A DNA stretch of 33,341 nucleotides from an uncultured Gammaproteobacteria bacterium (GTDB taxonomy: Bacteria > Pseudomonadota > Gammaproteobacteria > JAADHQ01). The translations under genes and the position numbers were made by a program. Location: positions 1,990 to 35,330 of the forward strand of contig CAMYJD010000039.1 of NCBI GenBank assembly GCA_947258655.1, read 5' to 3'. The notes beneath the pieces were generated by a model that saw only the letters and a list, made by a program, of their open reading frames with translations, was not told the DNA's origin and searched no databases. Positions 7,391-33,002 of the stretch are shown here, one piece after another. Position 1 is the first letter of the stretch. The number at the start of each line of letters is the position of its first letter.

Positions 7391-8128
7391 ATGAAAATTT
7401 TATCAAGTATATTTATAGCAGGGTTTTTGTCTGTAGCGCCTTTATCTCAGGCAGAAGAAGCGCTACCGCAGGCTGATAAGGCTGAGTTTACCCGCAATCT
7501 TCAACAGTACTTCCCGCAAATCAAGCCCGATAGTGTCAGCTACAGTCCTGTCAGTGGTTTGTATGAGGTTATTGTTGGTCCCCGAGTATATTATTTGAGT
7601 CGGGATGCACGTTATCTTGTCACCGCCAATATCATCGATCTAAAGGACGGTGCCAATCTGACCAAACCCAGAATGCAGATGGCCAGAAGGGACGTGCTGG
7701 AACGTATGGGTGAGGGCAAGATGATCATTTTTTCACCCGCGAAACCACAATATCTAATTTCGGCTTTTACCGATATCGATTGCGGCTATTGCCGGAAAAT
7801 GCATAGCCAGATCAAGGAGTATAACAAGCTGGGTATCGGCATCCGCTACATGTTTTATCCGCGTGCCGGTATGGGTTCCGAAAGTTACAAGACAGCGATA
7901 TCCGTGTGGTGCAATCAGGACAGGAAAAAGGCCTTTACCGATGCCAAGGCAGGCAGGAAAATCGAGTCCAAATCCTGTGACAATCCGATAACAGAGCACA
8001 TGAAACTGGTGCAACAAATGGGATTAAGGGGTACGCCGGCACTGGTGCTGCCATCGGGTGAGTTGGTTGAAAGCTATATTCCGCCTGCCGAGCTACTGAA
8101 ATTGCTGCGTTCGCGTGAATCGCAATAA
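7391..8128 (+). CDS. dsbC: Periplasmic disulfide isomerase DsbC
   Basis: The product is 245 aa with an N-terminal signal peptide (about residues 1-21, ending near SQA). An N-terminal dimerisation domain (about 30-90) is followed by a thioredoxin-fold domain with active site C131-G-Y-C134, cis-proline loop T215-P216 (GLRGTPAL) and a second cysteine pair, C174 and C196, as in E. coli DsbC. The enzyme reshuffles wrong disulfides in periplasmic proteins and is kept reduced by DsbD. The CGYC dipeptide and length favour DsbC over DsbG. The gene lies 210 bp downstream of xerD, a conserved neighbourhood in gammaproteobacteria. The intervening sequence shows no gene. A 32-bp perfect palindrome lies 75 bp beyond the stop codon. 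Confidence 0.93.
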   Translation: MKILSSIFIAGFLSVAPLSQAEEALPQADKAEFTRNLQQYFPQIKPDSVSYSPVSGLYEVIVGPRVYYLSRDARYLVTANIIDLKDGANLTKPRMQMARRDVLERMGEGKMIIFSPAKPQYLISAFTDIDCGYCRKMHSQIKEYNKLGIGIRYMFYPRAGMGSESYKTAISVWCNQDRKKAFTDAKAGRKIESKSCDNPITEHMKLVQQMGLRGTPALVLPSGELVESYIPPAELLKLLRSRESQ

Positions 8129-8203: not shown

Positions 8204-8235
8204 AAATACGTGTAGGAATATTCCTACACGTATTT
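8204..8235. promoter_or_regulatory. Perfect 32-bp palindrome with GacA/UvrY-box-like core
   Basis: The two 16-bp arms (8204-8219 and 8220-8235) are exact reverse complements with no spacer. The central 18 bp (8211-8228) read TGTAGG-N6-CCTACA. The known GacA/UvrY upstream activating sequence is TGTAAG-N6-CTTACA, so the core differs by one base per arm and keeps the symmetry and spacing. Its centre is about 155-160 bp upstream of the predicted start of the GGA-rich sRNA, like the placement upstream of rsmY/rsmZ genes in Pseudomonas. It could instead act as a dsbC terminator, but no T-run follows. Confidence 0.6.
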
Positions 8236-8341
8236 AAATCAAGTCTAATATATATCATAATACATTGATTATAATATATAAAATTGCTAAAAGAATTTCT
8301 ATATTAGAAAATTGTTAATTATTACTAATCAAGATGAGTGC

Positions 8342-8369
8342 TTGAATTATTTCTGATTAAGTTCAGAAT
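8342..8369 (+). promoter_or_regulatory. Predicted sigma-70 promoter of the GGA-rich sRNA
   Basis: A -35-like TTGAAT (8342-8347) and a -10-like CAGAAT (8364-8369) are separated by 16 bp, at the end of a very AT-rich stretch (about 8237-8375). Transcription would begin near 8376-8378, just before the first GGA motif. The -10 match is moderate (4 of 6), as expected for a promoter that needs an activator. Confidence 0.4.
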
Positions 8370-8376
8370 AACTTCA

Positions 8377-8484
8377 TAGCAGGGTGGCGAGGGAGTGACC
8401 CAGGGAAATGTCAAAAGGACTTGTGAGGATATGGATTTCCTTAGAAGGATACAGGCGGTCGTGCAAACGACCGCCTTTTTTTTT
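8377..8484 (+). ncRNA. Putative CsrA-sequestering small RNA (Rsm/Csr family)
   Basis: The predicted transcript is about 108 nt with no plausible coding frame. It carries six GGA motifs in about 60 nt (8392, 8404, 8417, 8427, 8433 and 8447). The first lies in the loop of a GGGT/ACCC stem (8382-8385 with 8398-8401). Two (8427 and 8433) lie in the loop closed by AAGGA/TCCTT (8415-8419 with 8438-8442). It ends in a strong intrinsic terminator. Repeated GGA in loops and linkers is the hallmark of CsrB/RsmY/RsmZ RNAs that titrate CsrA, and its size matches the RsmY/RsmZ class. csrA is encoded at 32811 in this window, and a GacA-box-like palindrome lies upstream. The class is inferred from architecture because primary sequence is poorly conserved in this family. 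The 5' end is approximate. Confidence 0.72.
8453..8484 (+). terminator. Intrinsic terminator of the putative sRNA
   Basis: A perfect 10-bp stem, AGGCGGTCGT (8453-8462) with ACGACCGCCT (8467-8476), encloses a stable GCAA tetraloop. It is followed directly by a nine-T run (8476-8484). No open reading frame ends just before it, so it most likely terminates the non-coding transcript. Confidence 0.93.
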
Positions 8485-8517: not shown

Positions 8518-8596
8518 GAAGGGCGAGAGCGGCGTCTCACCGGATTTATCGCATTATACAAGTGCTACAGCAGCCGAAGGGTGTGATATGCCGCGA
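8518..8596 (+). repeat. 79-bp direct repeat, copy 1
   Basis: This copy is identical over 79 bp to 8654-8732; the two are offset by 136 bp. It begins with the motif GGGCGAGAGCGGCGTCTCAC and ends with ATGCCGCGA. Shorter, degenerate pieces of the same motif lie around it: ATGCCGCGAAG at 8501 and 8589, and CGACGTCTCAC at 8613. GCCGC and GCGGC can pair into hairpins with a nested GCCC/GGGC. It looks like a structured, dispersed intergenic repeat. Overlapping open frames here have no ribosome-binding sites or family resemblance. Confidence 0.9.
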
Positions 8597-8653: not shown

Positions 8654-8732
8654 GAAGGGCGAGAGCGGCGTCTCACCGGATTTATCGCATTATACAAGTG
8701 CTACAGCAGCCGAAGGGTGTGATATGCCGCGA
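8654..8732 (+). repeat. 79-bp direct repeat, copy 2
   Basis: This is an exact second copy of 8518-8596. The two copies are separated by 57 bp of partly related sequence. The remaining 86 bp up to the end of fdxA show no gene. Complete identity implies recent duplication or ongoing homogenisation. Confidence 0.9.
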
Positions 8733-8818: not shown

Positions 8819-9142
8819 TCAGCGCTCCAGATACTGCAACTTGTCCGGCTTGCCATCCCATTCCTCTGCATCTGCAGGAGATTCCTTTTGCTCGGTGATA
8901 ACGGGCCATATCTCTGCCAGTTCGCGGTTCAATTCCAGAAAGTGCATCTGAGCTTCCGGTAAATCATCTTCGGCGAATATGGCTTCGGCGGGGCACTCTG
9001 GTTCACACAGACTGCAATCAATACATTCTTCAGGATCAATTGTCAGAAAGTTTGGACCCTCATGAAAGCAGTCTACCGGGCAGACCTCGACACAATCGGT
9101 ATATTTGCAGCGAATACAATTTTCGGTAACTACATAAGTCAT
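8819..9142 (-). CDS. fdxA: 7Fe (3Fe-4S/4Fe-4S) ferredoxin FdxA
   Basis: The product is 107 aa. Two iron-sulfur cluster motifs are visible: C9, C12, C17, C21 and C25 near the N-terminus ([17 protein letters not shown]) and C40, C43, C46 and C50 ([12 protein letters not shown]). The spacing, and the C-terminal extension of about 50 residues, are those of the Azotobacter-type seven-iron ferredoxin that carries low-potential electrons in the cytosol. In many gammaproteobacteria fdxA follows mutS directly. Here the whole Wsp operon lies between them, 173 bp upstream of this gene on the same strand. The ribosome-binding site before the ATG at 9142 is weak (AGG). Confidence 0.92.
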
Positions 9143-32810: not shown

Positions 32811-33002
32811 ATGTTAATTTTAACGCGACGTGTGGGTGAAACCCTCATGATCGGTGACGAAGTAACAGTGACAGTATTAGGTGTTAAAGGCAACCAGGTT
32901 CGAATTGGTGTAAACGCACCCAAAGAAGTGGCTGTCCACCGTGAAGAAATCTATGACAGAATCCAGAAGGAGAATGACTCCGATGCTGCGGGCAACGAGT
33001 AA
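32811..33002 (+). CDS. csrA: Carbon storage regulator CsrA (RsmA)
   Basis: The product is 63 aa, full length. The family hallmark [18 protein letters not shown] opens the protein, and [19 protein letters not shown] contains the RNA-contacting V-A-V-H-R-E-E segment, with the conserved L4 and R44-type residues in place. The homodimer binds GGA motifs near ribosome-binding sites and blocks or stabilises mRNAs governing motility, biofilm and carbon flow. The ribosome-binding site AAGGAGAC 8 nt upstream itself contains GGA, which fits the known CsrA autorepression. The order alaS-lysC-csrA-tRNA-Ser is conserved. The putative titrating sRNA is at 8377-8484. The lysC-csrA gap (195 bp) probably holds its promoters, but I see no firm box. 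Confidence 0.97.

Follow-up and report, generated by a model that had tools for sequence, protein, structure and literature searches.

The small RNAs CsrB and CsrC of Escherichia coli carry multiple GGA motifs and a terminator, as does the candidate RNA described here, although CsrB is longer and has many more GGAs than this RNA of about 109 nt with six GGAs. The E. coli csrB gene has a UvrY-type inverted repeat centred at -183/-182 (PMC4682653). In Pseudomonas, synteny of fdxA and rsmZ has been published for P. aeruginosa and P. knackmussii (PMC3395598), and the same organisation is described in a further report (PMC4353343). The Alcanivorax RNA CsrR2 adjoins a ferredoxin gene (PMC9788540), and in Marinomonas one arm of a suspected GacA box reads TGTAGG (PMC8523701).

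We analysed a 33,341-nt stretch of DNA from an uncultured gammaproteobacterium, referred to as the window. Its sequence makes it very probable that the gap between dsbC and fdxA holds a gene for a UvrY-activated, CsrA-sequestering small RNA (sRNA) of the CsrB/RsmZ type. An initial annotation had proposed an sRNA of the Csr/Rsm type controlled from a UvrY/GacA-like box far upstream. Good support for this proposal comes from sequence conservation, the spacing and the synteny with fdxA, and from the genome encoding CsrA, UvrY and a BarA-like kinase. The features are as follows.

7391-8128, plus strand: dsbC-like gene for a disulfide isomerase, lying upstream of the box (above cut-off for Pfam DsbC_N and Thioredoxin_2)
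8211-8228, no strand: proposed UvrY/GacA box TGTAGG-N6-CCTACA, the conserved core of the palindrome at 8204-8235
8236-8341, no strand: AT-rich spacer, poorly conserved in sequence and conserved in length
8342-8369, plus strand: candidate sigma-70 promoter TTGAAT-N16-CAGAAT, found by eye in the four-congener alignment
8376-8484, plus strand: proposed Csr/Rsm-type sRNA, about 109 nt, 5' end estimated
8426-8441, plus strand: possible hairpin AGGA-N8-UCCU with the GGA at 8433-8435 in its loop; four pairs can form in all four congeners
8453-8484, plus strand: intrinsic terminator with a 10-pair stem (8453-8476), a 4-nt loop and nine T's (8476-8484)
8819-9142, minus strand: fdxA, encoding a 7Fe ferredoxin (NF045490, 171 bits, over cut-off), convergent with the RNA
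32811-33002, plus strand: csrA, which follows an aspartate kinase gene and encodes the proposed target protein (NF002469, 119 bits; TIGR00202, 103 bits; PF02599)

The palindrome AAATACGTGTAGGAATATTCCTACACGTATTT is a perfect 32-bp repeat, as the initial annotation had stated, and lies exactly at 8204-8235, with TGTAGG-N6-CCTACA as its core. A scan of the window found no other perfect palindrome of at least 16 bp. Each arm of the 18-bp box has one base that departs from TGTAAG-N6-CTTACA and five that agree with it. Among the four congeners, 11 of the 12 columns of the box arms are invariant, compared with five of 14 in the outer palindrome; selection therefore appears to act on the core, as on a protein-binding site rather than a hairpin. 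The distance from the box centre to the TAGC at the 5' end of the RNA is 155-157 bp in all four (about 157 here), which bears out the earlier estimate of about 155 bp. With a variant box at about -157 whose arms and distance are conserved, the locus appears to have the UvrY/GacA box typical of the CsrB/RsmZ class.

The genome scan for TGTAGG-N6-CCTACA that the initial annotation had suggested returned three sites in 3.48 Mb, against one for the reversed control pattern, and both extra sites, on contig C16, lack an adjacent GGA-rich RNA. These two perfect boxes (G000:C16:20648 and 23152; L001 and L002 at 1501) are separated by 2.5 kb. Both lie about 300 bp upstream of a small minus-strand protein gene, and the two genes are similar to each other. 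The extra TGTAGG boxes of the congeners revealed no shared neighbour gene. One congener has a box just past an rplQ-like gene that itself follows an rpoA-like gene (L217 1439, G001:C90), and no box was found at the equivalent place in the other congeners.

Within the proposed RNA, GGAs occur at 8392, 8404, 8417, 8427, 8433 and 8447, and five of the six fit A-N-GGA. Six GGAs within 78 nt are found at only three places in the window, counting both strands. Their number exceeds that of mononucleotide shuffles (p = 0.03), whereas dinucleotide shuffles match it in 15% of cases (p = 0.15); the count alone is thus weak evidence, and the comparative support is decisive. The six GGAs, the perfect 10-bp terminator stem with nine T's and the predicted length of 108 nt (about 109 nt here) were all recovered as first described. 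The claim that several GGAs sit in hairpin loops held in part: the AGGA-N8-UCCU hairpin, which appears in the predicted fold of the window's RNA, is possible in all four congeners, and the other predicted folds outside the terminator vary among them. The terminator is strong and conserved, with paired, compensatory changes across relatives. The hexamers of the candidate promoter are weak and fall under the threshold of a consensus scan; all four congeners share the TTG of the first hexamer and the A.AAT of the second.

The alignment comprised the window's genome (G000) and three congeners (G001, G002 and G003). G001 and G003 have the element in the dsbC-fdxA gap; the contig of G002 runs from xerD into the element and ends shortly past it. 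Invariant columns make up 70% of the RNA and 22% of the spacer (8236-8373; p = 8e-15), and five of the six GGA triplets are fully invariant, compared with 24 of 69 other triplets (p = 0.03). The multiple GGAs characteristic of the CsrB/RsmZ class are thus present and largely invariant. The congeners differ by indels of 1-2 nt, which disfavours a coding sequence. This comparison of the syntenic gap, another check that had been proposed, found the box core, spacing, five of six GGAs and terminator kept while the spacer drifted.

Around the element, the dsbC-like gene scores under the NCBIfam DsbC cut-off (181 vs 215 bits). Between the sRNA terminator and fdxA lies an exact 79-nt direct repeat (8518-8596 and 8654-8732, spacing 136). 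Text similar to it (GCGGCGTCTCA) adjoins the element in G003, and the repeat may therefore be an interspersed one.

The protein partners of such an RNA are encoded in the same genome. As first annotated, csrA lies in the window itself, and its matches to NF002469 and TIGR00202 are both above cut-off. There is one clear UvrY/GacA orthologue (G000:C55), which shares 57% identity with E. coli UvrY (the query agrees with the E. coli record except for the first residue, codon TTG) and exceeds the NCBIfam UvrY/SirA/GacA cut-off (309 vs 280 bits). Its gene (L057) is followed by a thioredoxin/NHL-repeat-like gene, at the place where E. coli has uvrC. A BarA-like hybrid kinase on contig C1 has HAMP, HisKA, HATPase, receiver and Hpt domains and scores below the NCBIfam BarA cut-off (628 vs 890 bits).

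The sequence elements are present and conserved at a fixed spacing, and the genome has csrA, uvrY and a barA-like gene; from these observations we infer transcription, UvrY binding, CsrA binding and titration. Phosphorylated UvrY, a member of the GacA family, would bind TGTAGG-N6-CCTACA far upstream and activate the putative sigma-70 promoter at about 8342-8369. The resulting transcript of about 109 nt would end at the terminator near 8484, and its GGA motifs would bind CsrA dimers, keeping CsrA off its target mRNAs.

A covariance search for the known Csr/Rsm families, also suggested at the outset, gave no family at threshold: in the window no Csr/Rsm family of Rfam reached its gathering score, and only a tRNA did so. 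A permissive threshold added chance matches only, among them a CsrC-type match of 9.7 bits that spans the terminator alone. The PrrB_RsmZ model RF00166 (gathering score 44 bits) matched neither the window nor G000; used to search for relatives, it returned one true rsmZ, the remainder being sub-threshold. The window's own genome was searched by pattern and by covariance model, and two such models found no second copy of the RNA. A plasmid search gave no match.

A covariance model built from the four congener RNAs (R1) was run over 369 gammaproteobacterial genomes and matched in 27 of them at E <= 0.01, most of the weak matches being driven by the terminator. Many box-less matches were set aside, as the terminator GGCGG...CCGCC alone accounts for them. 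Several matches in other families have a box about 150-190 bp upstream:

G187: box CGTAGGAATATTCCTACA, RNA likewise between dsbC and fdxA
G161: box TGTAGGACACGTCCTACA
G092: box TGTAGTCCTGATCCTACA
G004: box TGTAAGGGTTATCTGACA, with a TGTAAG half-site instead

In G161, G092, G004 and G057 the RNA lies between UvrD-like helicase and PD-(D/E)XK nuclease-like genes, names that come from reading the translations. GGA-rich RNAs of this type with these flanks (L031, L032, L033 and L043) occur in four genomes of three families. In G057 (L032) the RNA is followed, after about 55 bp, by an additional perfect TGTAGG box.

The RNA (8376-8484, plus strand) lies beside fdxA and converges with it, and P. nitroreducens (L166) has the same geometry. 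The 80 loci nearest by FdxA sequence were scanned with strict criteria for box, GGAs and terminator, and six have such a GGA-rich RNA on the strand opposite fdxA: one is the congener G003 (L089 is its contig too), four are Halomonadaceae, and in Pseudomonas nitroreducens the RNA is rsmZ. Reading by eye added Halomonas lysinitropha and an uncultured lineage (L102). Imperfect terminators escape the strict scan, so that six is a lower bound. Judged by its position, the RNA of the window may be orthologous to rsmZ, though the rsmZ family model gave no match to it.

The TGTAGG box is not private to the window's lineage. Across the 369 genomes TGTAGG-N6-CCTACA occurs about 82 times, compared with about 37 for the reversed control (table count), and within the genus 10 times compared with once. 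The recognition helix of UvrY reads KTVSTYRHR here; the E. coli protein has KTVNSYRYR and that of Pseudomonas nitroreducens KTVNTYRYR. Among the first eleven genomes, TGTAGG-type boxes went with His or Arg at the last variable position of the helix and TGTAA-type boxes with Tyr, with the exception of G004 (His and TGTAAG). A general tie between box variant and recognition helix was rejected, as the Halomonadaceae break it: they pair TGTAGG boxes with the ordinary Tyr helix KTVNTYRYR, and the shifted box alone therefore does not imply an altered regulator specificity. The lineage-specific response-regulator specificity suggested by the initial annotation was accordingly not upheld, since GGA-rich RNAs of distant families also have TGTAGG boxes upstream and the Halomonadaceae helix is ordinary. 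It seems doubtful that, in this and adjacent lineages, half-site position 5 (TGTAAG to TGTAGG) changed in step with the UvrY helix residue (Tyr to His or Arg in KTVxTYR[Y/H/R]R). If true, such a co-change would define a UvrY sub-family with altered DNA specificity, and the Halomonadaceae would have reached their box by another route.

Since the box is one base per arm off TGTAAG-N6-CTTACA, and the neighbours of the other TGTAGG boxes in the genus are unrelated genes, with no GGA-rich RNA beside them, the palindrome of a genuinely CsrA-titrating RNA could be bound by a regulator other than UvrY. We consider this unlikely, because the site fits a GacA/UvrY box in its position, in its symmetry, in its length of 18 bp and in five of the six bases of each arm, TGTAGG-type boxes precede Csr-like RNAs at a GacA-like distance in Halomonadaceae and other families, and the related RNA in G004 has a TGTAAG half-site. 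It is more improbable still that the sRNA works mainly by base pairing, for example as an antisense RNA to the 3' end of the fdxA mRNA, rather than by titrating CsrA. The RNA does converge with fdxA, and a dual function of this sort has been proposed for Alcanivorax CsrR2 (PMC9788540). However, 335 bp separate the end of the terminator at 8484 from that of fdxA at 8819, so the RNA does not overlap fdxA, and the conserved feature is the GGA triplets.

Dinucleotide shuffles can reach the observed number of GGAs, as would be expected if there were no gene here at all and a chance GGA-rich stretch with a terminator, or the 3' end of a dsbC transcript, had been mistaken for one. Box, spacing, GGAs and terminator are strongly and selectively conserved next to a drifting spacer, and other families have similar RNAs, which leaves this explanation with almost no probability. 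A UvrY-activated, CsrA-sequestering RNA is the reading we prefer. The RNA is new as a previously unlisted member and ordinary in kind. In this uncultured gammaproteobacterial genus, where Rfam finds no such RNA, it would be the output arm of the BarA-UvrY-Csr cascade. Search rules for Csr RNAs should accept TGTAGG besides TGTAAG, and two neighbourhoods of such RNAs recur, one beside fdxA and the other between the helicase-like and nuclease-like genes.

Among the described systems, the window's RNA resembles RsmZ of Pseudomonas (RF00166) in its far-upstream GacA-type box, short GGA-rich RNA, intrinsic terminator and convergent fdxA; it differs in having no RF00166 match, a dsbC flank in place of rpoS, and TGTAGG where RsmZ has TGTAAG. 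Compared by description, CsrR2 of Alcanivorax dieselolei is likewise CsrA-related, with six GGAs and a ferredoxin neighbour, but it is reported to be antisense to the ferredoxin gene (PMC9788540), whereas the window's RNA has no such overlap. The position of the csrB box at -183/-182 is comparable to the distance of about -157 found here. The fdxA-side RNAs of Halomonadaceae (L118, L135, L151, L156 and L164) share a TGTAGG-type box, GGA-richness and the strand opposite fdxA. Four of them (L118, L135, L156 and L164) lie close to fdxA; the RNA of L151, whose box is TGTAAG/CCTACA, lies further away. The Halomonadaceae RNAs are longer, with 10-14 GGAs in the four scanned, and their UvrY helix is KTVNTYRYR as opposed to KTVSTYRHR in the window's genome.
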